From Lysobacterales bacterium (GTDB lineage: Bacteria > Pseudomonadota > Gammaproteobacteria > Xanthomonadales > SZUA-36), in assembly GCA_014238945.1 (NCBI GenBank), contig JABAAB010000023.1, positions 1 through 57,496 of the forward strand: a stretch of DNA of 57,496 nt. The letters run 5' to 3'. A model generated the notes under the pieces. The model saw only the letters and a program-made list of their open reading frames with translations, made no database searches and was not told the origin of the DNA. The number at the start of each line of letters is the position of its first letter. Positions within the stretch are counted from its first letter, which is position 1. Below, one piece after another: positions 7,962-43,569 of the stretch. Position numbers and translations under genes: made by a program.

Positions 7962-8030
7962 ATGAATTTGCTGATCACCCAATTGATAAATACCTGGTCA
8001 GAACGCTTTTTCGGGCAGGATGAGCAGTAA
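7962..8030 (+). CDS. Possible 22-residue leader peptide ORF
   Basis: An ATG at 7962 follows GGATAAGAAG, and the frame codes for 22 residues (MNLLITQLINTWSERFF and five more) to TAA at 8028-8030. The stop lies one base before the ATG at 8032 of the GTPase gene, an arrangement that favours translational coupling. It sits about 40 bases downstream of the TATAAT at 7918. The composition is amphipathic and it has no known family. It could be a real small protein, a coupling leader or chance. Confidence 0.35.
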   Translation: MNLLITQLINTWSERFFGQDEQ

Positions 8031-8031
8031 A

Positions 8032-9072
8032 ATGCAAGAGGGACGCATTCCTGTTTCTGTAATAACCGGTTTCCTGGGCAGCGGTAAAACCACCCTGCTC
8101 AATTACCTGGTGCACCATCCGGGCATGGGTGAAACGGCCGTTATTGTTAACGAGTTCGGTGAAGTCGGACTCGACCACGAACTGATTGAAAAAAGTGATG
8201 AGAACACCATCCTTCTGGGTTCCGGCTGCCTGTGTTGCACGGTGCGGGGCGACCTGGTGGATACGCTTGGAGACCTGTCTGTGCGGCGTTTGAAAGGAGA
8301 AGTTCCACCGTTCAAGCGCGTCGTTATCGAAACCACAGGCCTTGCCGACCCCGCCCCCATCCTGCATACGCTGATGAGCGTGCCGGTGGTGGGCCGCTAC
8401 GTGTTGGACAACGTTGTCACCACGGTGGACGTGGTCAATGGCTACGACACGCTGCAAAATCATGACGAGGCAGTCAAACAGGTGGCGATTGCGGATCGTA
8501 TCCTGATGACCAAATCGGATCTGGTCGAAGCAGACAGCATGACAGGATTGTCCTCTTACCTGCGTAAATTGAACCCTGCAGCACCAACTGCCAACGTCGT
8601 TAATGGCGAGATTGACCCGTCAGGCTTGTTCGGCAGCCTGCGCTTTGATCTTGAGACCAAGTCTGACGAGGTTCGCCAGTGGTTGATGGCTGAGCGCTAT
8701 CCCGATGCCCATCACGAGAAAGAGCACCGGCACAACGTCAATCGTCACAAGGACAATATCGAGGCGTTTTGCCTGCGTTTTGACCAGCCACTGGATTGGA
8801 AAACCACCGCCCTGTGGCTGGATTCCCTGGTGGCGAACCAGGGTGAGAAACTACTGCGCGTTAAAGGGATACTCGACGTTGAAGGCATTGCAGAACCGAT
8901 CGTGATTCACGCGGTGCAACACCTGTTCCATCCCCCGGTGCGGATCGAATCCTGGCCACAGGCACAGCGAGAGAGCCGCATCGTGTTCATCACCAGGGAT
9001 TTACCCCGCAGTGCGGTGGAAGAAGCACTGCAAAAGGCCAAAAACCTTATTCGGCTGCAATCGGTAGCGTAA
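8032..9072 (+). CDS. CobW/COG0523-family GTPase (metallochaperone)
   Basis: This is a G3E-family P-loop GTPase, typically used to deliver zinc or another metal to a client enzyme. From the ATG at 8032 it has 346 residues. The Walker A motif GFLGSGKT is at 13-20, the metal-binding CLCC is at 66-69, ETTGLADP is a Walker B/switch segment near 100, and TKSD is the guanine motif. A His-rich stretch (HHEKEHRHNVNRH) precedes the C-terminal CobW_C domain. An ATG at 8020 is possible, but 8032 directly follows the stop of the leader ORF. The next two genes encode metal-dependent amidohydrolases, which are plausible clients. It is first in an operon behind a TGTATACA site. Confidence 0.85.
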   Translation: MQEGRIPVSVITGFLGSGKTTLLNYLVHHPGMGETAVIVNEFGEVGLDHELIEKSDENTILLGSGCLCCTVRGDLVDTLGDLSVRRLKGEVPPFKRVVIETTGLADPAPILHTLMSVPVVGRYVLDNVVTTVDVVNGYDTLQNHDEAVKQVAIADRILMTKSDLVEADSMTGLSSYLRKLNPAAPTANVVNGEIDPSGLFGSLRFDLETKSDEVRQWLMAERYPDAHHEKEHRHNVNRHKDNIEAFCLRFDQPLDWKTTALWLDSLVANQGEKLLRVKGILDVEGIAEPIVIHAVQHLFHPPVRIESWPQAQRESRIVFITRDLPRSAVEEALQKAKNLIRLQSVA

Positions 9073-9113
9073 TGTCGGTTATTGCCAAACTTATCAATCT
9101 ACAGGAGTGAGTA

Positions 9114-10511
9114 ATGACTGACACGGTCATCAAGAATGGAGAAATCGTTACGGCGCAAGGTCGCCGCAAAGCGTCAATCGCAATTTCGGGCGAACGCATC
9201 GAGGGAATCTTTGAACCCGGTACCGAGCCGCAAGCCAGCGAAGTGATTGACGCTGAAGGCCTGGTTATCCTGCCCGGTGGAGTCGATATGCACTCGCATC
9301 ATCGCCAGGGCGCCGAGAGTGGGGGATACGAATACAAAGAAACCATCGAGTCGGCCACCAACCAGTGCGCCGCCGGCGGAATTACCACTTCGGTCGCCAT
9401 GCCCAACGTGGTGCCTCCGCCCAATACCCTTGAACGGCTTGAGGATCTGCTGCGCGTTTACGAGAAATGCGCAGTGGTGGATTACAACGTTAACCCCGCC
9501 GGAACAGTAATGGAGGAAATCCCAAGGTTGGCAGAGACAGGGATAGGCGCATTCAAGATTTTCATGGTGGTCGATACCGGGCGCGATTATCCGCATATGC
9601 CGGGTATCGGCATGCATGATCACGGCCAGATCATGGAAGCGATGGAGCTGTGCGCCGCGGCCAATGTCCCGCTGATGATCCATCCGCACGACCAGGCCCT
9701 GATGGACCACATTGAAAAGGCATACTGGGAGCGTGGTGAGCGTGATGCACTGGCTTACGCCAAGGCTTACTCGGCACATGACGGAGTGATCTGGGATACG
9801 GCGATTGCCACCCTCTTGCGTCTGCAAAAGGCCACCGGTGTGCACTTGCATCTGTTGCACATCCAGACAGCCGGCAGCGTCAAGTTGATCAGGGAAGCCA
9901 AGGCCAACGGCCAGAAGGTCACCTGCGAGATCAATCCATGGGCCCTGTTCCTCGGGAATGACTGGTCGGCGATTGAACGGCTTGGCTCTTATGCGCTGTC
10001 CTATTACGTGCCTGAGAAAAACACACCATACCTTTGGGAAGCGCTGAACGAGGGCACCATCGATATCTTTGCCAGCGATCACGCGCCGCATACGGCGGAA
10101 GAGAAGGAGATCGGCTGGGAGGACGGCTGGAAAGCCCATACCGGTACCCCTTCTACCCAGTATTACATGCGCTTCCTGGTAGATGCGGCATCCAATGGAA
10201 AGATCTCGCTGGAGCGGGTGGCCGAAATCACATCCACCGCACCGGCGGAAATTTTCAAACTCGATAACAAGGGCCAAATTGAACCCGGCTACCACGCAGA
10301 TCTCGTGCTATATGACCTTGAAGCTGAGTCAGAGGTCAGGGACGAGGACCTGCTTGGACTGATCGGGTGGTCGCCATACGCGGGCCTGAAGACCAAGGGC
10401 GTACCCGTAAGGACCATCATCAGGGGCAGGACCGTTTTTGCAGATGGCAAGGTGATCGCAAAAGCGGGTGACGGCAGGTTTGCCAGCGCCCGGGGCGACC
10501 GGGCCGCATAA
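9114..10511 (+). CDS. Dihydropyrimidinase/hydantoinase-like amidohydrolase
   Basis: This is a 465-residue cytoplasmic cyclic-amidase of the dihydropyrimidinase/allantoinase group, which hydrolyses ring amides such as hydantoins. AGGAG lies six bases before the ATG. The binuclear metal site is complete: His60 and His62 in MHSHH, Lys148 (the residue carboxylated in this family) in AFKIF, His190 or His192 in MIHPHD, His249 in LHLLHI and Asp322 in SDHAPH. It follows a CobW-type chaperone and precedes a second amidohydrolase, pointing to sequential hydrolysis of a nitrogen-containing substrate. The exact substrate cannot be assigned; D-hydantoin, dihydropyrimidine and allantoin are all possible. 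Confidence 0.85.
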   Translation: MTDTVIKNGEIVTAQGRRKASIAISGERIEGIFEPGTEPQASEVIDAEGLVILPGGVDMHSHHRQGAESGGYEYKETIESATNQCAAGGITTSVAMPNVVPPPNTLERLEDLLRVYEKCAVVDYNVNPAGTVMEEIPRLAETGIGAFKIFMVVDTGRDYPHMPGIGMHDHGQIMEAMELCAAANVPLMIHPHDQALMDHIEKAYWERGERDALAYAKAYSAHDGVIWDTAIATLLRLQKATGVHLHLLHIQTAGSVKLIREAKANGQKVTCEINPWALFLGNDWSAIERLGSYALSYYVPEKNTPYLWEALNEGTIDIFASDHAPHTAEEKEIGWEDGWKAHTGTPSTQYYMRFLVDAASNGKISLERVAEITSTAPAEIFKLDNKGQIEPGYHADLVLYDLEAESEVRDEDLLGLIGWSPYAGLKTKGVPVRTIIRGRTVFADGKVIAKAGDGRFASARGDRAA

Positions 10512-10590: not shown

Positions 10591-12084
10591 TTGAAGAACG
10601 CCAAGCTCACGCGCAGGGAACTGGTTGGGGGCACCGCCACGCTTGGGTTGCTGGCAGCTGGAGGCGTGTTGGCTGGAAATGCGATGGCGGGGAGTGGCGA
10701 GGCCGCGTCGAAAGCGAATGGAAAACTCCCCGCACAGGGGGAATACCTGGTAAAAAATGCCTACGTTCTGAGCATGGATCCTGAAATAGGTCACCTCGAT
10801 AAAGGCAGCGTGCATATAAAGGACGGCAGGATTGTCGCGGTGGGCGCAGATGTCTCCGCACCAGGCGCCGAAGTGCTGGACGGGTATGGCATGGTCGTCA
10901 TGCCGGGCTTCATCGATACCCACTGGCACATGTGGCATGCAATTTTCCGGAATTTTCTGCGCGAAGGACTGAGCTATTTTCCTGTCAAGTATGCCTTGTC
11001 CCAGCATTTCACCCCTGAGGATGTACACAACGGCAACCGCCTGGCCCTGGCTGAAGCGATCAATGCCGGTTTTACCACCGTGCATAACTTTGCACACAAC
11101 ATCAGGAGTCCGGAATTTGCCGATGCGGAGATGAGCGCCTGGGCGGAATTCGGTATGCCCGGCAGATTCTCCTACGGATGGAAAGACGGACTCCCGTTTA
11201 CCGAGATCGATCCGTCCGATGACCTGGAGAGGTTTCAGAAAAAATGGATAGGGCCGGACTCCCCGACCCGGGGCCTGATGGAACTCGGCCGTGCAGTGCG
11301 CGGGCCGATGTACACCAAGCACGAGATTTATGCGCCCGAGATCGAAGCCGCCTACGCGATGGACCTGCCCATCACCATGCATGCCGGCATCACCCGGGCA
11401 AGAACCATTTCAGCAGCCCGGCTGCACGAGGAAGGTTGCCTTAATGGCAGGACGATGCTGGTGCATTTCCTGCTGGCCAACAGGAACGACCGTGCGGCCA
11501 TGAAGGAGGTTGGGGCTTCGCTCAGCGCGACGATCAAGTCCGAGATGCGCGGCCAAAAGGACGGCGGTTTCCGCCGCAACCTGCTGCACATGCTCAATGA
11601 CGGGATCAACGTGTGCCTTTCGGGCGTTGATGCAAACGTAACCAGCGCTTCGAGCATGTTCGACGCCATGTCCAGCGCCTGGTCAGTCGGTATTCCATGG
11701 AGTACGGACGACACGGCCGAGTTGAAGGCCGTTGAGTACAGTACCTGCCTTGAAATGGCGATTACCAACGGCGCGAAAGGACTGGGACTTGAGAATGTCA
11801 CCGGCAGCCTGACGCCCGGCAAGCGCGCAGACCTGATCCTTGTGCGCGCGAACGATCTGAATATGGCGCCCTTCCACGATGCCAATTCCGCCATTGTGAA
11901 ATCCGCCAGGGTGGCGAATGTCGATACCGTGATGATCGACGGGCGCATCAGGAAACGTGCTGGTGAACTAATTGGTGTCGATATTCCTGAAATTGTCGGC
12001 AATGCGGCGCGCTCCCTGCACAATATGCAAACCCGTGCAGGCGGTGAATGGGCGCCGAAATCTCCTACCGTGCCCAAGTTTTAG
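10591..12084 (+). CDS. Tat-type exported amidohydrolase
   Basis: This is a metal-dependent hydrolase of the TRZ/ATZ-cytosine deaminase group, about 497 residues. LTRRELVGGTATLGLLAAGG at the N-terminus looks like a twin-arginine signal, so it probably acts in the periplasm. Metal ligands appear as His111 and His113 (DTHWHMWH), MHAG and STDD. The start is unclear. The TTG at 10591 has no good ribosome binding site. The frame is open further upstream, where AGGAAAG sits seven bases before an ATA codon at 10567 that would add ISKRKSDD. The original start may have been ATG at that point. It is third in the operon, about 80 bases after the hydantoinase. Confidence 0.8.
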   Translation: MKNAKLTRRELVGGTATLGLLAAGGVLAGNAMAGSGEAASKANGKLPAQGEYLVKNAYVLSMDPEIGHLDKGSVHIKDGRIVAVGADVSAPGAEVLDGYGMVVMPGFIDTHWHMWHAIFRNFLREGLSYFPVKYALSQHFTPEDVHNGNRLALAEAINAGFTTVHNFAHNIRSPEFADAEMSAWAEFGMPGRFSYGWKDGLPFTEIDPSDDLERFQKKWIGPDSPTRGLMELGRAVRGPMYTKHEIYAPEIEAAYAMDLPITMHAGITRARTISAARLHEEGCLNGRTMLVHFLLANRNDRAAMKEVGASLSATIKSEMRGQKDGGFRRNLLHMLNDGINVCLSGVDANVTSASSMFDAMSSAWSVGIPWSTDDTAELKAVEYSTCLEMAITNGAKGLGLENVTGSLTPGKRADLILVRANDLNMAPFHDANSAIVKSARVANVDTVMIDGRIRKRAGELIGVDIPEIVGNAARSLHNMQTRAGGEWAPKSPTVPKF

Positions 12085-12120: not shown

Positions 12121-12708
12121 TTGGTGGTGGTATTGGCCGGTATGGCAAGCGGGGTCGCCGGACAGGAAGCCGGCGACCCCGGTGTTATTGAATTCAGGGG
12201 CCGCCTTGTCTTGATCGTCACTGCTGATGATCAGACCCGAATCGACGATTTGACCGGCGTGTCTTCCGGTGAAGCTGTTTCTGGTGAAGAAGAACAGTAC
12301 CGGCAATTGTCCGTACGCATTGACAGGCACCTGGCGTCCACCGAGTTGCAGGAAGACAGGCAGTTATCAGGAATGGAACGCCTGCACAGGGCGACCAATT
12401 ACGCGCGTAAACTCATCGAGCGGGTCGATTTGCTTAATGAGCGCGTCATGTTTCTGGGCAACGAAAAAGCACTTCACGAAAAAATTCTTGCTGCAACCGC
12501 GGCGTTCGATGTCCCCCTGATCAAATCCCTCTTGCAGGAGAAGCTTTCGCTCGAGGATGACAACCTGGCCGAGGCCGCGTTCCAGTTGGCCGGATTCCAG
12601 GAACTGGATGGCGAATACCAGGATGCCTGGGGTAACTACCAGCGCGCCAGTAACCTGGAACCGGGCAATCAGTTTTATATGGACGCCCACGGAAAAAACG
12701 AATTCTGA
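12121..12708 (+). CDS. Small exported protein, signal peptide interrupted by TGA
   Basis: This is a protein of about 195 residues, unrecognised, with a helical C-terminal half resembling a single TPR-like unit (AEAAFQLAGFQELDGEYQDAWGNYQRA). Upstream and in frame, an ATG at 12094 with AGGGCGAG seven bases before it begins MRFRSIPL. A TGA at 12118-12120 follows, and then LVVVLAGMASGVAG-QE continues, which together is a normal signal peptide cut by one stop codon. Either the gene now starts at the TTG/GTG codons at 12121-12129, or it is inactivated, or the base is an error. It is fourth in the operon, just before the rhodanese gene. Confidence 0.6.
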   Translation: MVVVLAGMASGVAGQEAGDPGVIEFRGRLVLIVTADDQTRIDDLTGVSSGEAVSGEEEQYRQLSVRIDRHLASTELQEDRQLSGMERLHRATNYARKLIERVDLLNERVMFLGNEKALHEKILAATAAFDVPLIKSLLQEKLSLEDDNLAEAAFQLAGFQELDGEYQDAWGNYQRASNLEPGNQFYMDAHGKNEF

Positions 12709-12720
12709 GTGGTAAAAAAC

Positions 12721-13590
12721 ATGAGTCAATCACCCCTGGTCAGTTCCCAATGGCTGGCCGACCGCCTCGAAGACCCCTCTGTGGCTGTTGCACACGTACT
12801 CTACGAATCCGATGTCGATGACTATACGCAGGGACATATCCCCGGTGCGCTGGCCTGGTACTGGAAAGACATTTTCTGGCATGACAGCAAGCGCGAGTTT
12901 CCCACGCCTTCAGAAATGGCTGAAAAACTGGGCCAGCAAGGCATTGATGAAAATACGACCCTGGTGCTGTACAGCGGCCGTAATCAATATGCCATTTACG
13001 GATACCGGGCCATTAAGACCATGTGCGGTCACGCAGATGTCAGGATCCTGGATGGGCATCTTAAAAAGTGGAACCTGGAAGGGCGCCAATTGCAAAAAGA
13101 AGCTCTCCGGCTCCAACCCACACCTTATACGCCGCAACAAAGCGTTCGTGACGACTCCAGCAGGGTGGACATCAGCGAAGTCAGTGCCTTGCTGAATCAT
13201 CCGGGTACGGTCATCCTTGATGCCAGGTACCAGTCGGAATACCAGTCGGAATACGACGGTGAGCGCGTCAAGCCGGGCACAGGATTCGACTACGGGGCCG
13301 AATGCTGGGGGCGGATTCCGGGCGCCAGGCACCTGATGTTCCGCAGGCTTTTTGATGAAACGGATGACAGTCTTCTCGATGCCGCAGGGCTGGAAAAGCT
13401 GTTTCGCAGCGTTGGTGCAGCACCCGACCAGGCTGAGCAAGTGATCTGTTATTGCCGGCTCGGCCACCGGGGTAGTTTGCTGTGGTTTGCGGCCTCACAA
13501 ATTTTGGGGTGGCATCATTTCAGGGTATACGACGGCTCGTGGACCGAATGGGGTTCCTCAGTGGGATACCCCGTAGAAGTATGCGATTGA
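12721..13590 (+). CDS. Tandem-domain rhodanese (sulfurtransferase)
   Basis: This is a two-domain rhodanese of about 289 residues, which moves sulfane sulfur between donors such as thiosulfate or mercaptopyruvate and thiol acceptors. The N-terminal domain lacks an active cysteine at the loop (LYSGRNQYAIYG). The C-terminal domain has the loop CYCRLGHRGS, with the second Cys in the catalytic position. The ATG at 12721 is preferred; a GTG at 12709 directly after the previous stop is possible. A 12-base tandem duplication (CAGTCGGAATAC, 13231-13254) produces YQSEYQSEY. It is the last intact gene of the operon, which raises the possibility of a sulfur-containing substrate for the pathway. Confidence 0.82.
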   Translation: MSQSPLVSSQWLADRLEDPSVAVAHVLYESDVDDYTQGHIPGALAWYWKDIFWHDSKREFPTPSEMAEKLGQQGIDENTTLVLYSGRNQYAIYGYRAIKTMCGHADVRILDGHLKKWNLEGRQLQKEALRLQPTPYTPQQSVRDDSSRVDISEVSALLNHPGTVILDARYQSEYQSEYDGERVKPGTGFDYGAECWGRIPGARHLMFRRLFDETDDSLLDAAGLEKLFRSVGAAPDQAEQVICYCRLGHRGSLLWFAASQILGWHHFRVYDGSWTEWGSSVGYPVEVCD

Positions 13591-13841: not shown

Positions 13842-14266
13842 TCAGACACCTGGAATGGATCTTTTGGCGAAGTAGTGGTCAAGGTTGTATTTTCCGGCTC
13901 CATGGGCTGTAACAAACAGCAGGCCGCCGAAGATGGCTATATTTTTTGAAAAGAATAAATAAACATAGAAATTCGACTCCCAGTCCCAGTGAAAGATAAA
14001 GGACGCCAGCGCGGTAAAACCGGCCAGGCCTAATGCGGCCAGGCGGGTTTGCCAGCCCAGCGCCAGGGCAAGGCCACAACCCAGTTCAAGCACGATAACG
14101 AATGGCAGCAATTCAGCCGGAACACCATGGTCCTCGAGCATGCTTTCAAACCTGCCATATTCCAGCATCTTCCTGATTGGGAGCGGATAAAGATAAACGC
14201 GATAAACAGCCGGCCTGCCAGTTCCAGTACGTTTCCGTATTTTTCAAAGGTGTTGTTAATGTTCAC
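13842..14266 (-). pseudogene. DoxX-family membrane protein, frameshifted
   Basis: Two overlapping frames together give one DoxX protein of about 140 residues with four membrane helices. The N-terminal part, VNINNTFEKYGNVLELAGRL, begins at the GTG at 14266, which overlaps the stop of the preceding gene (TAGTG). The C-terminal part continues as MLEYGRFESMLEDHG in the other frame. Restoring one A near 14171-14174 (GGAAGATGC to GGAAAGATGC) would give the expected SGKMLEYGRF. DoxX proteins are small inner-membrane subunits tied to quinone or thiosulfate chemistry and redox stress. It is last in the operon running from 19192. Confidence 0.6.
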
Positions 14267-15333
14267 TATTCTGATCGGCCACTTTTGCAATTGCGCCGCT
14301 GTGTGGAATCCAACGCTTTCTTATAGAAGGACAGGTCGATAAAATCGTCCATGTCCGACAGGTCAGCCGGTGGTGAACCATACTCGTCGCGCAGGGAAAG
14401 TACGGTCGCGACACCATCCATATCCAATGCACCACGGGGCGTGAAACCGTAGGCTCCAGAGGTCATCTGTGCCAGGGTTTTGAGCGCAATGGCCGGGTCC
14501 ATTGACGTATGTGCACTGACAATGGCAACCACTTCATCACGACGGCTTTCGTCATAGACGATTTCCATGGCCTTGATATAGGCACGGATGAAAGCAACGA
14601 CAACCTCGGGGTTTTCGGCCGCCCAGCTTGCGTTCAGCCCGAAACTTGAGCCTTGGTAAGGCCCTATCGATGCCAGGCTGTCATCAAGGTGTTTGAAGCC
14701 TGCAGCATATGCCTGGTTGATGTAGTTGCCGACCAGCAGGGTGGCCCGGTAGTCCCCGTTTTTAAGTGCCGTGACTCGTTTGGCCGTGTTGCCGGTTTCA
14801 ACGAACCGGTAGTCGGATTCCGACAGTCCGCCCTTTTTCAACATCTCCCTCAACACGAATGCCCAGCCGGTGGTCAGTGCGTCGACGCCCAGTGGCTCGC
14901 CCCTGATATCGGAGTACTCATTCACGTCCGGCGACACGACCAGGTCAAGTTTCATGGTCGACCCGCCCATCACCACGCGCAGTTCCGGTTCACGGTCCAG
15001 TTCAGCTGCGCCCTGGCCGGACTGGTAGGCGAAAAAGTTGTCAATGGATGCCTGGGCGATGTCGTAATTCCCCTTGACCAGTTCGGTCATCAGGTAGATG
15101 GAATTGGGTGTGTCCTTGACGGATACCTCCAGATTTTCCTGCGCAAACAGGCCTGTGTCCTGTGCAACGTAAATGCCGGTAGCCATGATTCCGCCAAAAA
15201 GCACGACCCTGATTTCTGAGCCTGTGGTCTGGTCAGCATAAACAGGAAAGGTGCAGGCAATGCTGATAAGCAGAACCAGCGGAAGCAGTAAAAACGAGCG
15301 CCGCCACTGTATTCTTCCCGAATTGTGCATCAT
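14266..15333 (-). CDS. NMT1/SsuA-type ABC substrate-binding protein
   Basis: This is a 355-residue periplasmic solute receptor of the NMT1/THI5-like group, which binds small molecules such as sulfonates, nitrate analogues or pyrimidine precursors. A signal peptide (WRRSFLLLPLVLLISIACTFPVYA) is followed by the two-lobed fold, with GIMATGIYVAQDTGLFAQENL as the conserved first segment. The start ATG overlaps the stop of the cyclase gene, so translation is coupled. No ABC permease or ATPase lies nearby, so it may share a transporter elsewhere or serve as a sensor. The ligand is unknown. Confidence 0.8.
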   Translation of the reverse strand: MMHNSGRIQWRRSFLLLPLVLLISIACTFPVYADQTTGSEIRVVLFGGIMATGIYVAQDTGLFAQENLEVSVKDTPNSIYLMTELVKGNYDIAQASIDNFFAYQSGQGAAELDREPELRVVMGGSTMKLDLVVSPDVNEYSDIRGEPLGVDALTTGWAFVLREMLKKGGLSESDYRFVETGNTAKRVTALKNGDYRATLLVGNYINQAYAAGFKHLDDSLASIGPYQGSSFGLNASWAAENPEVVVAFIRAYIKAMEIVYDESRRDEVVAIVSAHTSMDPAIALKTLAQMTSGAYGFTPRGALDMDGVATVLSLRDEYGSPPADLSDMDDFIDLSFYKKALDSTQRRNCKSGRSE

Positions 15334-16577
15334 CGAATCAGGATCGGCGCGACCGGTGATCCGCCGTTGCCCCGGATGGGGATGGTCTGGATGATCAGGG
15401 TCGATATGTAACAGGATTTATCCGGTTTGCCGCTGGCTTCGATCCCGGCCAGCCGTTCCTTTTCGCAGGTTTCGGAAATAACTTCCAGGTCAAGGTCCTC
15501 CATCATGTAAATGCCGTTGTTCAACCAGCTCAGGTGACCAAAATTTTCAAATTTGAAGCGCGGCTTTTTGACCGTGGCTTCAACGCTCTTGTTGTCACCA
15601 CCCACCAGCACGGGTTGGCGGTTGACAGACCAGGTAATCGCGCGGGCATCCAGTCCGGGACCGGCGGGCCCGAAAGTGTTCTTGCCGCCGTTGAGGTAGC
15701 GCAAACGCTCATCGCGTGGGTCCCGCGGATTCGAGGTCCAGTAACGGCCGGCCCAGCCGGTGCGGAACAGGATGGCATCACCGGGCTTGATGTCGTCCGG
15801 TGTCAGCCCTTGGCGAACCATGGCCGACTCGATCTCTTCGGGGCTGAATTCATAGTCGAACGGTGGGAACTGCCCGGGGTCTCGGCCTTGCGCTGCCTCT
15901 ATTTCACGCAGGCCGGTCGCAAGATCTATCAGGATCGCCCGCGCCACCACGGTGCCGACATTTTCCATGCCCATTTTGGTATGGCCACGGAACACGTAGT
16001 CTTTCCCTGGCATGCCGTTTGGAAGCTCGCCGGGATCACCTTCGGCCAGCCGGTGATAGGCGGGGTCACGGGTGTTGAAACAGTTGTAGGTGATCCCGCT
16101 TTGCGTCGTATGGGTAAACCCGTCGAATTGCGTGCCAAGCGATGTGAGCAGGGACCCCGATGCCTTCTGGTTGTAGGTGCTGTTTCCGGTCAGCTCTTCG
16201 TTATTGAATATGGTTGTGCTGCCGTTTTTACCCGGCCATTCACCCAGGTTGCTTTTGGTATCCAGGTGGGCTGTGAAGCCCATCTGGCCGGGGTCGAGCG
16301 CATGCGACAGGTTGTAAACCTTGCCCAGCCGTATCAGGCCGAGGTTTTCGGCAATGCGCTCCGGGGTGAGGTAATTGAGATTACCCAGTTCATCGTCCGG
16401 GCCCCATTTGCGCGTGGTCGTGTTGTCGCAGGGGTCCGGTAGCTCAAGCTCAAAGGGGATTTTGTCCATCGGGGCCGGCGCATTTTCTTCCGCTGCATGG
16501 GCCAGGGACAGGGCCATTGCCATGATCCCAGCTGAAAGGACCAGGCGAAAACCGGTTGGCTGCTTAAGATTTTCCAT
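15330..16577 (-). CDS. Exported cyclase-family (kynurenine formamidase-like) hydrolase
   Basis: This is a 415-residue metal-dependent hydrolase of the cyclase superfamily, which includes kynurenine formamidase and isatin hydrolase and opens cyclic or formyl amides. AGAGGA six bases before the ATG at 16577 fixes the start and leaves a signal peptide ending AHA. The metal-site motif appears as GTQFDGFTH, the variant found in the larger members; GDAILFRTGW and the C-terminal region also fit. It overlaps the binding-protein gene by four bases. Its presence in an operon of exported proteins suggests a periplasmic ring-opening step. The substrate is unknown. Confidence 0.78.
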   Translation of the reverse strand: MENLKQPTGFRLVLSAGIMAMALSLAHAAEENAPAPMDKIPFELELPDPCDNTTTRKWGPDDELGNLNYLTPERIAENLGLIRLGKVYNLSHALDPGQMGFTAHLDTKSNLGEWPGKNGSTTIFNNEELTGNSTYNQKASGSLLTSLGTQFDGFTHTTQSGITYNCFNTRDPAYHRLAEGDPGELPNGMPGKDYVFRGHTKMGMENVGTVVARAILIDLATGLREIEAAQGRDPGQFPPFDYEFSPEEIESAMVRQGLTPDDIKPGDAILFRTGWAGRYWTSNPRDPRDERLRYLNGGKNTFGPAGPGLDARAITWSVNRQPVLVGGDNKSVEATVKKPRFKFENFGHLSWLNNGIYMMEDLDLEVISETCEKERLAGIEASGKPDKSCYISTLIIQTIPIRGNGGSPVAPILIR

Positions 16578-16625
16578 GATCAATCCTCTGCTCGGTCTGT
16601 TCGTCAACAAGCGAACGATTTTGGT

Positions 16626-20921: not shown

Positions 20922-20985
20922 CGATTAATCCGGAAAGGGTACGAATGTAAAAATTTAGAGAATTGCAGAAGCGCTTCACGTATAA

Positions 20986-23657: not shown

Positions 23658-23674
23658 GAGACCTGCATGCAATG

Positions 23675-34572: not shown

Positions 34573-34582
34573 TTGTATACAA
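34573..34582. promoter_or_regulatory. TTGTATACAA operator, site 5 (hyuA operon)
   Basis: TTGTATACAA is a perfect ten-base palindrome. TTGTAT can act as the -35 hexamer, with TATAAT at 34596-34601 exactly 17 bases on, so operator and promoter coincide. It drives the hyuA-hyuB-dehydrogenase operon starting at 34736. Confidence 0.65.
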
Positions 34583-34735
34583 TATATCTAAGTGATATAA
34601 TGCCAGTGCTGACTCCGAATTCAAGATAATAACGACACAAATACGACGGCTGGGACGTTACCAACCGGGGATTTTTCAGCTTTCGTGTCAGACTTTTCCT
34701 GACCCAATGAAACAATCACCAGCCAGCGTAAGTGC

Positions 34736-36847: not shown

Positions 36848-38589
36848 GCAGAAATGTAGATCCAATCACTTTGTCCACGACCTGGCACGCTTTCCAGAGT
36901 ATTGCGCGCGAAATGCGCCACGTGATCGACCGTACGGCGCAAAGTTACCTGCTGGCGCAGCTGCATGACATGGCGGCCGGTATCTGGGATGCACAGGGCC
37001 GCACCATTGCGGTTCCCGAGGGCCCGACCTCGATGTTCCTGTCACAGCATTTTTGTGTCGAGTATATTCTTGAGCATTTCGGCGACGATCTCCATCCGGG
37101 CGATGTGTTCTGTACCAACGACCCCTACCACAGCCAATGTAATCACCTGCCTGACTGGGGGTTTATCCGGCCGATCTTTTACGATGGTGAATTGGTTTTC
37201 ATGGCCCTGACCCGGGGTCACATGATGGACACTGGCGGGTCTTTTCCAGGGGGCTATTTTCCCAATGGGTATGACATTCATGCGGAGGGCCTGATCATTC
37301 CGCCCATCAAGGTATTTTCCAAGGGCCGCGAGCGCACCGATGTGCTGCAACTACTTTGGAACAACGTGCGCTTCCCCGAAGGTGTGAAGATCGATAATTT
37401 CTCACTGATGGCTGCATTGCAGGTATGTGAAAACCGCATCACCGCGATGCTGGACAAGTACGGAAAAGACACGGTTCTCGATTGCGTCGAGGAAATGATC
37501 GATCGCATGGAGACCAGCGTTCGCTCGCAGATTCGAGATATGCCAGATGGCACCTATTATGGTGAATCAGCCACCGATGACGATGGCACCACGCTGGACG
37601 AGCAGGTCTGGGTGCGCCTGGATGCCACGGTAAAAGGCGAAGAACTGACCCTGGATTTCTCAAAATCTGACGATCAACGCAAAGGCTTCGTCAATTGCGT
37701 GGAAGCCTCCACATTCAGCCGTGCGGTCGCAGGCGCATTTTTGTATTTCGACCCGGAACTCGCACCGTTCCATAATGCCGGCAGTATGCGCCCTGTTAAC
37801 GTCATCTGCCGACCGGGCAGCGTCTGCAATGCGCAGTATCCGGCCACGGTTGGTGGTTCACCTGTGAATGTCGGTACACAGATCCTGGAAGCCACCGTCA
37901 TGGCCCTGTCCAAGGCGCGGCCGGACAAGGCCATTGCCGGGTGGGGCAGGCGTCGCGGTCATTACCTTTCCGCCATCGATCCACGTACCAATGAGCGTTA
38001 TGTCCAGACCACGACGGATGCCGACGGAGGCGCCGGGGCAGTCAGTGGTTATGACGGGTTTGAGGGTGCCATGGGCATGTCGGGCCTGGGCGCAATTCAG
38101 CGCGGCAGTGTCGAGGAGATTGAAATCAAGTTCCCCTGGCGAACCGTGAACTATCATTTCGTGCCGGATATGTCCGGTGCAGGTCAGTATCGCGGCGGTT
38201 CCGGAATGTTGTGGGAAGTTGAAAACCTCGGGACCGACGCGCCGGTGGCCACGGGCAGCTCTGACGGTGACCTGACGCAACCCCCCGGCGTACAGGGGGG
38301 TGACAACGGACCCTTGTCACGCATGTATATCCGCAAGGGAGACAAGAAAACGCCGGCCCGTACGCATCGCATGATCGAGGTGAAGACCGGCGAAATTCTG
38401 GGCAAAGTGAGTGGTGGCGGCGGTGGTGTAGGTGATCCTTTTAAACGCGACCCCTCGGCGGTCCTCAAAGATGTGATCAATGATTTCGTCACGCTTGAGG
38501 GTGCCCGGAACACCTACGGTGTGGTGATTGACACGGATACCATGACCGTCGATGAAGAAGCCACCGACGCATTGCGCGCGAGCGCTTAG
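36844..38589 (+). CDS. hyuB: Hydantoinase B subunit (HyuB)
   Basis: This is a 581-residue partner of HyuA. The HyuB fold shows MAAGIWDAQGRTIAVPEGPTSMF, CTNDPYHSQCNHLPDW (an HxxDxx-type metal-site stretch) and YRGGSGMLWEVENLG toward the C-terminus. HyuA and HyuB form a complex in which HyuB carries the hydrolytic or transfer site. The start overlaps hyuA by four bases, indicating coupled translation and equal dosage. It is followed by the first dehydrogenase E1 gene after 24 bases. Confidence 0.9.
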   Translation: MSRNVDPITLSTTWHAFQSIAREMRHVIDRTAQSYLLAQLHDMAAGIWDAQGRTIAVPEGPTSMFLSQHFCVEYILEHFGDDLHPGDVFCTNDPYHSQCNHLPDWGFIRPIFYDGELVFMALTRGHMMDTGGSFPGGYFPNGYDIHAEGLIIPPIKVFSKGRERTDVLQLLWNNVRFPEGVKIDNFSLMAALQVCENRITAMLDKYGKDTVLDCVEEMIDRMETSVRSQIRDMPDGTYYGESATDDDGTTLDEQVWVRLDATVKGEELTLDFSKSDDQRKGFVNCVEASTFSRAVAGAFLYFDPELAPFHNAGSMRPVNVICRPGSVCNAQYPATVGGSPVNVGTQILEATVMALSKARPDKAIAGWGRRRGHYLSAIDPRTNERYVQTTTDADGGAGAVSGYDGFEGAMGMSGLGAIQRGSVEEIEIKFPWRTVNYHFVPDMSGAGQYRGGSGMLWEVENLGTDAPVATGSSDGDLTQPPGVQGGDNGPLSRMYIRKGDKKTPARTHRMIEVKTGEILGKVSGGGGGVGDPFKRDPSAVLKDVINDFVTLEGARNTYGVVIDTDTMTVDEEATDALRASA

Positions 38590-38613: not shown

Positions 38614-39573
38614 ATGACTACCTCCGAGGTAAGCAGGGACGATCTCAGGTCGTTCCTGGAAAGCATGTGGTTGATCCGGGCCTTTGAAGAGAAGGCGGCG
38701 GAAATCTATGCGCGCGGCAAGATTAATGGCTTGTTGCACCTTGGTATGGGGCTCGAGGGTGTCGCCTCAGGCGCTGCCAGCGCCATGCGCAGGGACGACT
38801 ATGTATTTGGCGGGCACCGTGCCCACGCGCATGCCATTGCCCGCGGCGCGGATATCACCTCGATGATGGCCGAACTGGCAGGCCGCAGCACGGGCCTGTG
38901 CGGGGGCAAGGGCGGAACCATGCACCTGTCGGCGCCGGATGTCGGCTTTGTCACGGCAACCGGCGTTGTGGCCGGAAATATTCCACTGGCCCTTGGCGCG
39001 GCATTATCGGCCCGTGAAGCGGGTCGTGAGCAGGTATCCGCCGCCGTATTCGGCGACGGAGCAGGCCAGGCCGGAGTTTTTCACGAATCCCTGAATATTG
39101 CGTCCCTGTGGAAGTTACCGATGCTGTTCATCTGCGAGAATAACGGCTATGCAGAGTTCTCTCCGCTGTCTGACCATACACTGGTCGAGCGACTGTCCGA
39201 GTATGCCAAAACCTATGGCGTTCCCAGGGTTACGGTTGACGGAAATGACGTGCTGGCGGTTCGGGACGCCATAGCCGAGGCGGTTCAACGGGCACGCGCC
39301 GGAAAAGGCCCTTCATTTGTCGAGTGCCTGACGCACCGCTTGCGAGGCCACTACGAAGGCAAGAAAAGCGAATACGAGCGCAGTGAGATTGACAGCAAGG
39401 ATGTGGTCAGAATTTTTGAACGGAAGCTGATCGAAAGCGGCGATATCCTCCGCGATGAAGCGACAGAGATCGCCAGGCTCGCACGCGAGCGCGTGGAGCA
39501 GGCAGCAAAGGCCGCACTCGATGCGCCCTGGCCGCAGGCCGATCAGGTCACCACACAGGTATTGAGCACATAA
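38614..39573 (+). CDS. 2-oxoacid dehydrogenase E1 alpha subunit, set 1
   Basis: This is a 319-residue thiamine-diphosphate enzyme subunit of the pyruvate/acetoin dehydrogenase E1 alpha kind. The ThDP-Mg motif runs from FGDGAGQAG to CENNGY. GGKGGTMHL and HRLRGHYEG are conserved segments near the active site. It pairs with the beta subunit starting four bases after its stop. E1 decarboxylates a 2-oxoacid (or cleaves acetoin) and passes the acyl group to lipoate. The start ATG at 38614 has a weak, distant GGAG. Confidence 0.88.
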   Translation: MTTSEVSRDDLRSFLESMWLIRAFEEKAAEIYARGKINGLLHLGMGLEGVASGAASAMRRDDYVFGGHRAHAHAIARGADITSMMAELAGRSTGLCGGKGGTMHLSAPDVGFVTATGVVAGNIPLALGAALSAREAGREQVSAAVFGDGAGQAGVFHESLNIASLWKLPMLFICENNGYAEFSPLSDHTLVERLSEYAKTYGVPRVTVDGNDVLAVRDAIAEAVQRARAGKGPSFVECLTHRLRGHYEGKKSEYERSEIDSKDVVRIFERKLIESGDILRDEATEIARLARERVEQAAKAALDAPWPQADQVTTQVLST

Positions 39574-39576
39574 GCC

Positions 39577-40563
39577 ATGGCTGAAACCAGGTACATCAAC
39601 GGTATACAGCAGGCGCTGCTCGAAGAGATGGCTGACGACAGCACCATCAGGGTCATGGGTGAGGATGTGACCTTCGGCGGCCCTTTTGGCGCGACCAAGG
39701 GCCTGGTCGAGGCCTATGGCGAATCACGAGTAATCAATACACCCATTTCGGAAGCCACCATTGTCGGCATGGCCGTAGGCGCAGCCATTACCGGCTTGCG
39801 TCCCGTACTCGAGATCATGTTTGTCGATTTCATCACGCTGGGTATGGACCAGCTGGTGAATCACGCGGCCAAGTTGCATTACATGACCGGTGGACAGCTT
39901 GAAGTTCCATTGACGATTCGCGCAACCTGTGGAGTAGGTGGTGGCTACGGGGCGCATCATTCGCAGAGCCTGGAGGCCTGGTTTTCCCATGTGCCCGGGC
40001 TCAAGGTGGTCGCGCCATACACACCCGCAGATGCCAAAGCGCTACTGAAATCATCCATTCGCGACAACAACACGGTCTTGTTCCTTGAGCACCGGGGTTT
40101 GTATTGGACCAGGGGCGAAGAACTGGCGGAACATGAACAGGTAGCGCTGGGCGAGGCAGTGGTTCGGAGAGCCGGCAAAGATATCACCATCCTGGGTGTT
40201 TCAAAGATGGTGGGTACCGCTTTGAAGGCGGCAGAACAACTGGCCGAACACGGAATCGAAGCGGAAGTCATCGATCCCCGTACGCTGGCGCCGCTGGACC
40301 TCGACACCATCGTGTCGTCGGTCAAGCGTACAGGCCACCTCGTCATTGCGCACGAAGCGGTGGAAACCGGGGGTATCGGCGCCGAAATAGCAGCCCGGGT
40401 ACAGGAAGCGGCGTTTAATGAGCTTGCTGCGCCCGTCATGCGCGTTGGCGCGCCATTTTCGCCCGTCCCGACCAGCATTGCGCTTGAAAAGGAGTTCGTT
40501 CCGGGACCCGAACAGGTGATCGAGGCCGTGCGACGGTCCATCGCCTATAACCGCGTGGCCTGA
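39577..40563 (+). CDS. 2-oxoacid dehydrogenase E1 beta subunit, set 1
   Basis: This is a 328-residue partner of the preceding alpha subunit. GEDVTFGGPFGATKGL, TPISEATIVGMAVGAAITGLRPV, GGGYGAHHSQSLEAWF and EVIDPRTLAPLDLDTI are hallmark E1 beta segments, including the Glu that activates ThDP (SEATI). Size and order are as in acetoin and branched-chain complexes. The two E1 pairs in this operon are distinct in sequence, so this is not a recent duplication. Confidence 0.88.
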   Translation: MAETRYINGIQQALLEEMADDSTIRVMGEDVTFGGPFGATKGLVEAYGESRVINTPISEATIVGMAVGAAITGLRPVLEIMFVDFITLGMDQLVNHAAKLHYMTGGQLEVPLTIRATCGVGGGYGAHHSQSLEAWFSHVPGLKVVAPYTPADAKALLKSSIRDNNTVLFLEHRGLYWTRGEELAEHEQVALGEAVVRRAGKDITILGVSKMVGTALKAAEQLAEHGIEAEVIDPRTLAPLDLDTIVSSVKRTGHLVIAHEAVETGGIGAEIAARVQEAAFNELAAPVMRVGAPFSPVPTSIALEKEFVPGPEQVIEAVRRSIAYNRVA

Positions 40564-40598
40564 AAACAAGTCACACGGCACCAAAACAGGAGTATTGC

Positions 40599-41618
40599 AT
40601 GTTACCCAAGCTATCCGGCGAACAGGTGCTGGAACAACTGCGGTTGGCGATCGTGATCAGGCGTTTTGAAGAGGAGTTGATCAAGCTTGCCGGTTCCAGG
40701 GACATAGGCCATTTCCACGTCTATATTGGTCAGGAAATGACCGGCGTGCCGGCGCTGTACCTGTTGGAGAGAGGCGATTTGTCGTTCACAACCCATCGAA
40801 ACCACGGCCACCTGCTGGCCAGGGGTGTTCCTGCCAGCCAGATGTACGCCGAGATCCTGGGTAAGGAGACCGGGATGATGGGCGGGCGCGGCGGAACCCT
40901 CCATCTATGTTCCATGGAGCACGGTTTTCCCACCACCTCATCGGCCGTAGGCGGCGCAACCCCATTGGCCACTGGCGCGGCATTTGGTTTTCAAAGGCTG
41001 GGTCAGGACCGTGTCAGTGTCTGTCTTTTCGGTGATGGGGCATTGGAAGAGGGGTCCTGGCACGAGTCGATCAACATTGCAGCTATGGAAAAATTACCAG
41101 TAATTTATCTGTGTGAAAACAATAGTTTGGAAGCATTAGGTCAGAAAGCAGGTGAATATCCGTCCTCAACGCTGGCAGCCGTTGATCTGATTGATCTGGT
41201 TACGCCATTCGGTGTGCCGACCATCCAGATTGATGGCTGTGATGCCGGAGCCGTACACGCGGCCATGGGCGAAGCCCTGCACCGGGCACGTAGCGGTGGT
41301 GGCGCGACATTCATAGAGGCGCGCACGGTGCGCTGGCCCGGCAACCGCCCGATTTGGCCGGAACTGTCGACCGGTGAAACGAACTTCGCCATGGCGTGGG
41401 ACAGTTCACTGGTCCCCACGGAATATCGCGAATGGCATGCTGAACAGGACGCCGTTCTTCGTTTCATACGGGAAATTCTTGCTGAAGGACTGATTGAACC
41501 CGAAGCCATCCTGGCCATGGACGCAGAAGTCAGCGCCGAGATGAAAGAGGCCGTCGAATTTGCGCTCGCCAGCAATTATCCGCCCGCGGCGGCGGCCATG
41601 GAAAAGGTCCTTGCCTAG
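40599..41618 (+). CDS. 2-oxoacid dehydrogenase E1 alpha subunit, set 2
   Basis: This is a 339-residue second E1 alpha. The ThDP motif runs FGDGALEEGSWHESINIAAMEKLPV to CENN. GGRGGTLHL and HVYIGQEMTGVPA at the N-terminus are conserved. AGGAG lies seven bases before the ATG. It differs clearly from set 1, so it may handle a different 2-oxoacid, or a homologue may have lost specificity. It pairs with the beta gene at 41646. Confidence 0.88.
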   Translation: MLPKLSGEQVLEQLRLAIVIRRFEEELIKLAGSRDIGHFHVYIGQEMTGVPALYLLERGDLSFTTHRNHGHLLARGVPASQMYAEILGKETGMMGGRGGTLHLCSMEHGFPTTSSAVGGATPLATGAAFGFQRLGQDRVSVCLFGDGALEEGSWHESINIAAMEKLPVIYLCENNSLEALGQKAGEYPSSTLAAVDLIDLVTPFGVPTIQIDGCDAGAVHAAMGEALHRARSGGGATFIEARTVRWPGNRPIWPELSTGETNFAMAWDSSLVPTEYREWHAEQDAVLRFIREILAEGLIEPEAILAMDAEVSAEMKEAVEFALASNYPPAAAAMEKVLA

Positions 41619-41645
41619 GCTGGTGCTGAAAATGAGAATACAAAT

Positions 41646-42617
41646 ATGAGAACATTGACTTATGGACAGGCCATGGTGGAGGGTTTGCGCGAGCTGCTCG
41701 AATCCGATGACCGTATTCACATCATGGGACAGTACTTCCTCGGGCTGACACCGCAAAGGGCGCTGGTGGGAGAACTGGCCGCCGAGCATCCCGATCGGTT
41801 CTACTATCCGCCGATCGCTGAACTGGGCTACCTGGGCACCGCCATCGGTGCAGCGATGACCGGTATGCGGCCCATTGTTGATCTTGCCACTGCGAGCTTC
41901 ATGTTCCAGGCCTGGGCGCAGATTACAGAGGAGATGGCCAATATCCACTACATGTCCGACGGGCAGACAAAAGTACCGATGGTGTTCCACTTTAATCACG
42001 GTATACGCGGCGGCGGTGCGGCACAGCATTCGCACAGCCCGCAGGCCATGCTCTGGAATACACCCGGCATGGAAATCATGCTGCCTTCAACGCCGTATGA
42101 CGTCAAAGGGTTGTTGAAAACAGCCGCGTCCACCGATAATCCAACGGCCTGGGGCGATCACGTCAAGCTGTTCATGATGGAAGGTGAAGTACCGGAAGAG
42201 GACTACGCCATTCCGTTCGGTGTTGCCGATATCAAGCGGGAGGGCAGTGATGTGACCATCGTAGCCACATCCCTGATGGTGCAGCGCTCACTGGCGGCAG
42301 CCGGGAAACTGGCATCAGAAGGTATCAGCGTCGAGATTGTTGATCCGCGCACTATTGTCCCGCTGGATGAGGCTGCTATCCTTGAGTCAGTAGCCAAGAC
42401 CGGACGGTTGGTCGTGGTGGACGAATGCCATCGAAGTTGCGGTGTGGGTGCGGAGTTTTCCGCCATCGTTGCAGAAAAGGCTTTTGGCTACCTGAAGTCG
42501 CCGATCAGGCGCGTGGTCACGGAGGACGTACCGATTCCATTCAGCCCGCCAATGGAGGAATACGTAGAGCCGACCGAGGCAAAAATCATCCAGGCAGTGA
42601 AAGAGGTAATCGACTGA
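41646..42617 (+). CDS. 2-oxoacid dehydrogenase E1 beta subunit, set 2
   Basis: This is a 323-residue E1 beta subunit. YPPIAELGYLGTAIGAAMTGMRPI corresponds to the ThDP-activating Glu region, and IRGGGAAQHSHSPQAML and EIVDPRTIVPLDE are family segments. Its TGA stop overlaps the ATG of the lipoyl protein (TGATG), which indicates coupled translation and links this E1 pair, at least, to the carrier domain that follows. Confidence 0.88.
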   Translation: MRTLTYGQAMVEGLRELLESDDRIHIMGQYFLGLTPQRALVGELAAEHPDRFYYPPIAELGYLGTAIGAAMTGMRPIVDLATASFMFQAWAQITEEMANIHYMSDGQTKVPMVFHFNHGIRGGGAAQHSHSPQAMLWNTPGMEIMLPSTPYDVKGLLKTAASTDNPTAWGDHVKLFMMEGEVPEEDYAIPFGVADIKREGSDVTIVATSLMVQRSLAAAGKLASEGISVEIVDPRTIVPLDEAAILESVAKTGRLVVVDECHRSCGVGAEFSAIVAEKAFGYLKSPIRRVVTEDVPIPFSPPMEEYVEPTEAKIIQAVKEVID

Positions 42618-42859
42618 TGGCCAGAATTGCAATAGAAATGCCCAACCTGGGGCATGACATTGAAGAAGGAAAAATCACCGAATGGGTCAAGAAAGTCGGC
42701 GATACCGTCGAGCGCGGTGACGTGATCGCGGAGGTTGAAACAGAAAAGGTGACCATGGAGGTTGAGGCTTTCGATACGGGAGTGCTCGCCGAGATCGTGC
42801 GCGACGTGGATTCTGAGGTTGCAACGGGTGAGGTCATTGCATACCTCGAGAGCCCGTAA
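42617..42859 (+). CDS. Stand-alone lipoyl-domain carrier protein
   Basis: This is an 80-residue protein that is a single biotinyl/lipoyl domain. Lys44 in EVETEKVTMEV is the expected lipoylation site. GAGG nine bases before the ATG and overlap with the E1 beta stop support the short start; a longer in-frame extension upstream lies entirely within the E1 gene. In typical complexes this domain is the N-terminal arm of E2. Here it is separate, so the swinging arm must bind E1 and E2 non-covalently. Confidence 0.85.
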   Translation: MARIAIEMPNLGHDIEEGKITEWVKKVGDTVERGDVIAEVETEKVTMEVEAFDTGVLAEIVRDVDSEVATGEVIAYLESP

Positions 42860-42867
42860 TAAAAACG

Positions 42868-43569
42868 ATGTCTGATCCGGAAGATAACGGCCGCCGGTTA
42901 GTCCAATCCACACCGATGCGCAAGGCCATAGCCCGGCGTATGAGCGAAAGTAAACAACAGGCTCCGCATTTTTACGTCAGTTGCGAAATCTCGATGGACG
43001 CAGCCAATGCAGCCATCGAAGCCCTGAACGAGAGCCGGGCGCCGGAATCGCGTATTACATTGACGGTTCTGTTGCTCAAGGCGGTTGCGCTGACATTGGC
43101 TGATTACCCTGAGTTCAATGCGCATTGGACCCCCGAAGGCCATGAAATCATCGACGACATCAACCTCGGTGTTGCGATCAGTTTGCCTGCCGGTCTGATT
43201 GCGCCAGCGATACTGGATTGCGGCGACTTTGGAATTGAGGAATTCTCTCACCGCCTGGCGGACCTCGCCGCCAGGGCAGGCAAAGGCAAGTTACGCGCTG
43301 CTGAGCTGAACGACACGACTTTTACCCTGAGCAACCTGGGCATGTTCGACGTCAGCTCTTTTACCGCCATTATCACGCCCCCCCAGGTAGCCATCCTGGC
43401 CGCCGGCCGGGCCTACCCATTGCCGAGGGTGGTGGACGGTGAAGTGGCTGTCCAGTCCATCATGAACGTGACGATGAGCTCGGACCACCGAGCGGTTGAC
43501 GGCACCGGCGCGGCACGCTTCCTGGGTGCGCTGAAAGAAAGGCTGGAAGCACCCCAAAACTGGCTTTAA
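42868..43569 (+). CDS. Stand-alone E2 acyltransferase catalytic domain
   Basis: This is a 233-residue protein that holds only the catalytic domain of a dihydrolipoamide acyltransferase. The active-site motif SSDHRAVDG contains His207 and Asp211. There is no lipoyl domain or peripheral-subunit-binding domain; the lipoyl domain is the protein just upstream. It passes the acyl group from lipoate to CoA. No E3 dihydrolipoamide dehydrogenase gene lies in the window, so that subunit must come from elsewhere. The gene overlaps the end of the convergent TRAP gene by four bases. Confidence 0.87.
   Translation: MSDPEDNGRRLVQSTPMRKAIARRMSESKQQAPHFYVSCEISMDAANAAIEALNESRAPESRITLTVLLLKAVALTLADYPEFNAHWTPEGHEIIDDINLGVAISLPAGLIAPAILDCGDFGIEEFSHRLADLAARAGKGKLRAAELNDTTFTLSNLGMFDVSSFTAIITPPQVAILAAGRAYPLPRVVDGEVAVQSIMNVTMSSDHRAVDGTGAARFLGALKERLEAPQNWL

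Follow-up and report, generated by a model that had tools for sequence, protein, structure and literature searches.

A predicted GntR-controlled catabolic regulon with ring-amide hydrolases and a second F420 operon beside it in a Lysobacterales bacterium

Reductive pyrimidine catabolism employs dihydropyrimidine dehydrogenase, dihydropyrimidinase and beta-ureidopropionase, the ring being reduced and the ring amide then hydrolysed. The Rut pathway includes a luciferase-like oxidoreductase (LLM), RutA, and a Rid-family protein, RutC. Catabolic use of cofactor F420 is known from actinobacteria, where the degradation of picrate and 2,4-dinitrophenol involves LLM-type hydride transfer dependent on reduced F420 (F420H2), as described in a 2021 review (PMC8498797). 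According to the same review, experimental study of F420 producers outside Actinobacteria had by 2021 reached neither F420H2-dependent reductases nor F420-reducing dehydrogenases, and work on the role of F420 in these organisms is needed (PMC8498797). Here we describe a locus of a Lysobacterales bacterium (assembly GCA_014238945.1, contig JABAAB010000023.1), hereafter the window, which is the whole contig C119 (57,496 bases of an assembly totalling 4.85 Mb). We tentatively read it as an accessory catabolic regulon, governed by a GntR/FCD-type protein and neighbouring an additional copy of the F420 operon, in which a nitrogen heterocycle or cyclic amide would be reduced by an F420H2-dependent LLM and then opened hydrolytically. 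This reading sits, in our judgement, near the balance point and slightly on the doubtful side. On this reading, the window would represent a proteobacterial variant, equipped with ring-amide hydrolases, of a mode of catabolism known from actinobacteria.

In the proposed route, an unsaturated nitrogen heterocycle or cyclic amide would be taken up by a TonB-receptor/MFS pair, it may meet a periplasmic amidohydrolase with a twin-arginine-like leader, and its ring would be reduced with F420H2 by one LLM (LLM1) and perhaps a second (LLM2). The ring amide would then be hydrolysed by a hydantoinase-family enzyme and the ATP-dependent HyuAB, and the product would be carried on to a 2-oxoacid, which a lipoyl dehydrogenase complex could convert into an acyl-CoA. 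The likeness to picrate and 2,4-dinitrophenol catabolism lies in the (here predicted) use of an LLM-superfamily reductase with F420H2; those systems, however, are actinobacterial and act on nitroaromatics, whereas the window is proteobacterial and combines ring-amide hydrolases with an F420 synthesis operon alongside. The order of reduction and then hydrolysis is shared with reductive pyrimidine catabolism, but here F420H2 would supply the hydride, and the hydrolases belong to different subfamilies. Adjacent LLM and Rid genes recall the Rut pathway, although LLM2 and the Rid protein fall far below the RutA and RutC cut-offs. CapAB of Pseudomonas jessenii is of the same HyuA/HyuB family and has ATP and metal sites that are kept in the window proteins; these nevertheless score well below the CapA and CapB cut-offs, and the available text on CapAB draws no link to F420 (PMC8453981). 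Other proteobacterial F420 operons also hold cofE, cofD, cofC and cofGH, often with LLM and Fno/npdG-like genes, but they rarely encode CofC-CofG-CofH as a single protein. No title or abstract opening among those listed by searches of the open literature describes the gene set of the window (subscription literature was outside the scope of this search). A six-site predicted regulon that joins ring-amide hydrolases and uptake genes to an F420-type LLM, and adjoins a second F420 operon, would make the role of F420 experimentally addressable; what lies next to some other F420 operons hints at a shared chemistry that could be tested as well.

The regulon is defined by a predicted operator. We compared 24 intergenic stretches and found, apart from a dispersed repeat, one element common to several of them. 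This 13-mer, RTATAHTGTATAC, has six exact matches in the genome, five of them within the window, against an expectation from base composition of 0.38 per genome; a reversed-pattern control had none. A 15-base form of the operator, allowing up to two mismatches, matched six times in the window (two matches overlap on opposite strands), compared with 0.30 (standard deviation 0.56) in 100 shuffles. The five places in the window, all exact matches, are intergenic, and each lies upstream of a run of genes:

7888-7900, plus strand: operator site 1, 119 bp upstream of the cobW-hydantoinase run
19312-19324, plus strand: operator site 2, 130 bp upstream of the glutathione S-transferase and O-methyltransferase genes
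20980-20992, plus strand: operator site 3, 170 bp upstream of the alpha/beta hydrolase-LLM1 run
34303-34315, plus strand: operator site 4, upstream of gntR
34575-34587, minus strand: operator site 5, 148 bp upstream of hyuA

Sites 1 and 4 overlap the -35-like hexamers of promoter-like sites (7896-7923 and 34314-34287, respectively) that are the best in their scans, as for a repressor site, although shuffled sequences contained promoter-like sites just as often overall. Because the pattern was drawn from the window sites, only the sixth match is independent. It is found on another contig (C31, 3361-3373), 46 bp upstream of the mechanically assigned start of an open reading frame (ORF) for a TonB-dependent receptor, which is followed by an MFS gene. 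An earlier interpretation made from the letters alone (the sequence-only reading) had placed part of the locus under a shared predicted operator, and these six matches, five upstream of window units and one before the TonB-receptor/MFS pair, bear it out: one predicted operator links an LLM, a hydantoinase-family enzyme, HyuAB and a 2-oxoacid dehydrogenase. The GntR/FCD protein is presumed to read the operator because of its family and the site upstream of its own gene, and the whole is likely a GntR regulon for uptake and breakdown. A minus-strand unit at 14266-17336, with NMT1-like, cyclase and cytochrome c genes, has no exact match to the 13-mer and is therefore counted as a neighbour only.

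Genes were called with Pfam and NCBIfam on the main non-overlapping ORFs of the window (120 ORFs in the mechanical list), and every gene class named in the sequence-only reading was recovered at or near the place it had been given. In and around the operator-bearing runs lie:

8020-9072, plus strand: CobW-type GTPase (PF02492, 5e-46)
9114-10511, plus strand: cyclic amidohydrolase of the dihydroorotase/allantoinase/hydantoinase family (TIGR00857, 266.8 bits, cut-off 279; TIGR02033, 228 bits, cut-off 393)
10591-12084, plus strand: ATZ/TRZ-type amidohydrolase (PF01979; NF006056, 378 bits, cut-off 391) with a twin-arginine-like leader seen by eye
12121-12708, plus strand: protein of the cobW-hydantoinase run with no Pfam match at 1e-3 or NCBIfam match at 0.01
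12709-13590, plus strand: rhodanese, 3-mercaptopyruvate sulfurtransferase-like (PF00581; NF008557, 79 bits, cut-off 250)
19455-20243, plus strand: glutathione S-transferase (PF13409)
20259-20921, plus strand: O-methyltransferase (PF01596)
21163-22068, plus strand: alpha/beta hydrolase (PF00326), weakly UilS-lactonase-like (NF047920, 142 bits, cut-off 400)
22082-23080, plus strand: LLM1, luciferase-like oxidoreductase
33435-34178, minus strand: GntR/FCD-type regulator (PF00392, PF07729)
34736-36847, plus strand: HyuA, nearest to caprolactamase CapA among NCBIfam models
36844-38589, plus strand: HyuB, nearest to caprolactamase CapB among NCBIfam models
38614-43569, plus strand: 2-oxoacid dehydrogenase with two E1 alpha/beta pairs (38614-42617), a lipoyl domain (42617-42859) and an E2 core (42868-43569)

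Ring-amide hydrolysis is the best-grounded chemistry predicted for the cluster, since the metal ligands of HyuB and the phosphate motifs of HyuA are kept and the enzyme at 9114-10511 comes close to the dihydroorotase-subfamily cut-off. Asp41, His99, Asp102 and His124 are the metal ligands of CapB, and DxGGTFTD and DMGGT the ATP motifs of CapA (PMC8453981). Aligned to 6yra_B, the window HyuB retains all four ligands (by eye), and HyuA, aligned to 6yra_A, retains both actin-like motifs. At 627 and 372 bits on the caprolactamase models NF050156 and NF050157 (cut-off 1000), the pair is not caprolactamase proper. The 9114-10511 enzyme falls just below the dihydroorotase-subfamily cut-off, with the hydantoinase models scoring lower, and the CobW-type GTPase may be a metal chaperone for the amidohydrolases. 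Thiamine pyrophosphate, lipoyl and HxxxDG motifs are visible by eye in the 2-oxoacid dehydrogenase; no E3 was found among the window ORFs scanned.

LLM1 is likely of the F420 type, to judge from its relatives. Its best solved relative is the F420-dependent FGD1 (66 bits), followed by a luciferase-like monooxygenase (63.6 bits), with named flavin mononucleotide (FMN) enzymes lower. A comparison with 39 family genomes, among them the genome of the window, gave three matches to LLM1 at 1e-20 or better: LLM1 itself, LLM2 (31% identity) and an LLM encoded 40 bp upstream of cofE in genome G011. On TIGR03619, a family named as F420-dependent (cut-off 166.9 bits), LLM2 scores above the cut-off (190.9 bits) and LLM1 below it (148.2 bits). 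The top-listed plasmid match of LLM2 (31% identity) is on Novosphingobium pSA2, where it begins as cofC ends.

The F420 genes follow the alpha/beta hydrolase-LLM1 run and precede LLM2:

23127-23540, plus strand: truncated FrhB, iron-sulfur part alone
23637-23692, plus strand: two tandem terminator-like hairpins between truncated frhB and cofE
23785-24558, plus strand: cofE, F420-0:glutamate ligase (PF01996, 8e-78)
24555-25523, plus strand: cofD (PF01933, 5e-44)
25453-28554, plus strand: cofC-cofG-cofH triple fusion
28545-30317, plus strand: lactate-permease gene lctP
30373-31392, plus strand: LLM2, of the TIGR03619 family
31439-31978, plus strand: Rid/L-PSP family protein (PF01042) with an apparent signal peptide (by eye)

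The CofC, CofD, CofE, CofG and CofH domains all lie in open frames with Pfam matches above the cut-offs, and radical-SAM cysteine motifs are visible by eye. CofC, CofG and CofH form one protein in three of the 41 loci that could be judged, namely the window, a second operon in the same genome (contig C79) and family genome G025; the triple fusion was gained twice, by parsimony on the CofGH tree. ORF length had hinted that Pusillimonas caeni (locus L046) also carries the fusion, which would have made it seem common, but a frame check puts CofC there in another frame. The 3-phosphoglycerate form of F420 (Mycetohabitans type) was considered as well. Its activating CofC has a diagnostic Ser162 in M. 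rhizoxinica (PMC8764529), while the window CofC, aligned to 7p97 and 6bwg, and the C79 CofC both have Gly at the equivalent position (by eye), and this form was rejected. Ordinary F420 made via the phosphoenolpyruvate or phospholactate route is therefore expected from both copies.

Neighbours of other F420 operons were surveyed in 45 genome loci with CofGH, 38 of them proteobacterial by title and some with short flanks. HyuAB genes occur in five of the 38, all in one tree clade (100/100); one of these (L060) has the order hyuA, hyuB, LLM, AMP-ligase, LLM, thioesterase, Fno-like, cofE, cofD, cofC, cofGH, with TRAP genes opposite. Another five combine an ArgE-type amidase with an LLM and form one clade with Sinorhizobium pSymA (99/93), a plasmid on which F420 genes lie beside LLM and ArgE-type genes. 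PxpABC-like genes were found in one locus (L046), and 27 of the 38, some with short flanks, have none of these hydrolase arrangements. Family genome G014 has hyuA some 4.5 kb away from cofGH; an LLM gene, a FAH-family gene and an M20 gene stand between the two. Seven plasmid regions, chosen for variety from 76 matching records and thus examples, not a sample, were also opened. The Agrobacterium rubi plasmid carries F420 genes with PxpA, genes interpreted as PxpB and PxpC, and an LLM. On the Leisingera caerulea plasmid (L115, 4987-20445), the F420 operon, npdG and a TIGR03842-annotated LLM are accompanied by genes for a dihydropyrimidinase, an aminotransferase, a Zn hydrolase and an NCS1 symporter. 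As a separate observation, this last region could possibly encode an F420-dependent reductive pyrimidine or hydantoin route. It may also be recorded that PxpABC-like 5-oxoprolinase genes stand beside npdG-like and F420 genes in both an alpha- (L112, 8694-19895) and a betaproteobacterium (L046, 4890-8200).

Taken more broadly, F420H2 and LLM enzymes in Proteobacteria might saturate a nitrogen heterocycle, and the amide hydrolase present in the given cluster, be it HyuAB, hydantoinase, PxpABC, ArgE-type or dihydropyrimidinase, would next open the ring. The window would be one regulated instance, with an extra F420 supply of its own; we consider this generalization possible but rather doubtful, and the hydrolase neighbours as a pattern are suggestive, not proven. 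HyuAB and the PxpABC-like neighbours of other F420 operons could instead be 5-oxoprolinases that recycle pyroglutamate from the glutamate tail of F420, and so serve cofactor turnover and not catabolism. HyuAB does belong to the oxoprolinase/hydantoinase family and PxpABC-like genes lie beside F420 genes in A. rubi and P. caeni, but the window HyuAB is nearest to caprolactamase, shares a run with the 2-oxoacid dehydrogenase under the operator, and has no counterpart near the C79 F420 operon, where no HyuAB match was found (L003, L004). We regard this turnover role as highly improbable.

A number of findings, set out in this and the next three paragraphs, weigh against the F420-dependent catabolic reading, beginning with cofactor supply. 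The genome has two PF01996 ligases, the second of which belongs to the intact F420 operon on C79, where cofE, cofD and the fused cofC-cofG-cofH show 68% identity to their window copies. Nearby on C79 are dnaX as well as aminotransferase, amino-acid dehydrogenase and 2-oxoacid dehydrogenase-like genes. With this second operon present, the window operon need not be dedicated. The F420 genes may, moreover, form a separate, unregulated unit, because two terminator-like hairpins precede cofE and the intergenic comparison found no operator site before it. The first hairpin (23637-23652) is followed immediately by TTTTT and the second (23674-23692) by seven T residues five bases on, and each is more stable than its shuffled versions (z -3.5 for the first, -2.3 for the second). 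Terminator-like sites number 23 over the scanned stretch versus 16.6 in shuffles, so single ones carry little weight, but the junction between frhB and cofE is the place where a terminator would matter most.

The regulon could be real and have no dedicated F420 part. The cof operon would then be a redundant neighbour, transcribed from a promoter of its own and left in place when a rearrangement cut frhB short, and C79 the main supplier. The hairpins and missing operator, the intact C79 operon, the truncated frhB immediately before the junction, and the grouping of window and C79 genes as old sister copies (100/100) all fit this explanation. Against it, LLM1, the more F420-like of the two by its solved relatives, belongs to a run that has an operator, the genes for LLM2 and the Rid protein follow cof within one run, the promoter scan detected no promoter-like site upstream of cofE, and each F420 copy remains undamaged at 68% identity, as would be expected if both were under selection. 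We lean against this explanation while taking it as a serious possibility. The sequence-only reading had placed cofactor synthesis inside the catabolic regulon. The regulon and the adjacent cof genes stand, but that wording was too strong: membership is unproven, as cofE lacks a site, hairpins precede it and the F420 gene set is duplicated. Its proposal of a dedicated F420-based route for opening a nitrogen-containing ring or amide is, for the same part, unproven as to cofactor supply, and otherwise agrees with the gene content, the operator, the HyuB ligands and some hydrolase-flanked F420 operons.

The cofactor of LLM2 is also ambiguous between F420 and FMN. Its AlphaFold model (mean pLDDT 85.6) has the FMN monooxygenases SfnG and MsuD as first Foldseek matches by E-value (best 50 of 221, E at most 0.001), and among these 50 the query TM-scores are about 0.71-0.77 for SfnG, MsuD and 3rao, 0.79 for the monooxygenase RslO1 and 0.74-0.78 for F420-dependent Mer. 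Fold was thus discarded as a discriminator, since both kinds match. F420 enzymes of the LLM fold arose from FMN ancestors, and the available text of the source gives no residue diagnostic of F420 versus FMN (PMC6279831). LLM2 and the Rid protein might accordingly carry out an FMNH2-dependent oxidative ring opening like that of RutA and RutC, making the pathway oxidative and not F420-reductive. The SfnG and MsuD matches, the presence of RutA among the matches listed and the rid gene 46 bp after LLM2 speak for such a pathway; yet LLM2 reaches only 44 bits on RutA (cut-off 498) as against 190.9 on TIGR03619, the ORFs scanned include no recognisable flavin reductase, and the Rid protein has an apparent signal peptide. 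On balance, we consider it unlikely.

Further points against F420-dependent reduction followed by hydrolysis concern conservation and integrity. The sixth operator site is not cleanly intergenic, since it falls within the final codons of a mechanically called ORF (L108, 2838-3392) that matches glutathione peroxidase. The whole gene set was sought in relatives and found in no other genome searched: LLM2 occurs in none of 38 other family genomes at 1e-40 and in none of 397 other genomes of the phylum at 1e-60 (up to five first-look candidates per genome scored, among the matches shown). Four of the seven plasmid regions (Novosphingobium, Aromatoleum, Paraburkholderia and Sphingobium) have other catabolic genes beside the F420 genes and no annotated hydrolase of these kinds, the annotation being incomplete. 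In a background of 202 HyuB copies (190 Mb, 47 genomes), HyuB lies near F420 genes in seven genomes versus 0.81 expected (P 2e-5 if independent). These seven, however, amount to three arrangements, or two without the window, with the related five counted as one (P 0.19), and a significant link was not reached after this collapse. Finally, frhB and lctP are broken, through decay of parts or assembly errors. The FrhB remnant is 59% identical over 137 amino acids to a full-length same-genus FrhB and then meets a stop. Continuation in another frame was rejected, as the full-length relative matches only as far as the stop; the 28-amino-acid reading after it has no weighty match in the compared loci except the window's own copies, and none in the plasmid collection. 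No match to the FrhB C-terminal domain (PF04432) was found anywhere in the genome. The lctP gene, of the lactate-permease family, is split by an in-frame TGA (29898-29900), and is a pseudogene or reflects an assembly error.

The history of the two F420 operons is reflected in the CofGH tree (58 rows). The sister pair of window and C79 copies is itself sister (95/84) to a clade of six rows from the same family (G003, G011, G017, G023, G024 and G025), with long stems on both sides of the split, and G014 falls elsewhere. Strong CofGH matches occur in 8 of 36 other family genomes and, among nine genomes of the same genus, in G003 only. Since G003 groups with other genera and not with its own genus pair, duplication, transfer or loss has been at work. 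In G003 itself (contig C41; L103, 2657-17370), the F420 genes are accompanied by a full-length FrhB, a fused KorA-like and a KorB-like gene and more 2-oxoacid:ferredoxin oxidoreductase genes, an arrangement that suggests F420 reduction driven by 2-oxoacid oxidation. Two Rhodospirillaceae bins (L055, 13171-18388, and L057) show five LLM genes in a row adjoining the F420 operon. The CofGH of a bin labelled Klebsiella pneumoniae (L062) is a close sister to that of a Betaproteobacteria bin (L064), and the label is probably wrong.

Other features of the window are as follows:

14266-17336, minus strand: NMT1-like, cyclase and cytochrome c run, with the putative cyclase (PF04199) at 15330-16610
32015-33328, minus strand: MFS transporter (PF07690)
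43566-45433, minus strand: TRAP transporter DctM and DctQ (PF06808, PF04290)

An Rfam search of the window at gathering thresholds gave no matches. A single open frame at 5845-7632, which matches CoA-transferase III in part and contains a weakly Ig-like stretch, looks like gene debris. A 33-bp sequence, present at 109-141, 3143-3175 and 45472-45504 of the window, occurs 24 times in the genome at up to three mismatches. Six occurrences are no more than 300 bases from the start of a contig, and the cluster is bracketed by two copies in direct orientation. Most of the copies compared share a longer left part, the copy at 3143 shares the end only, and the sequence looks like the end of a dispersed element.

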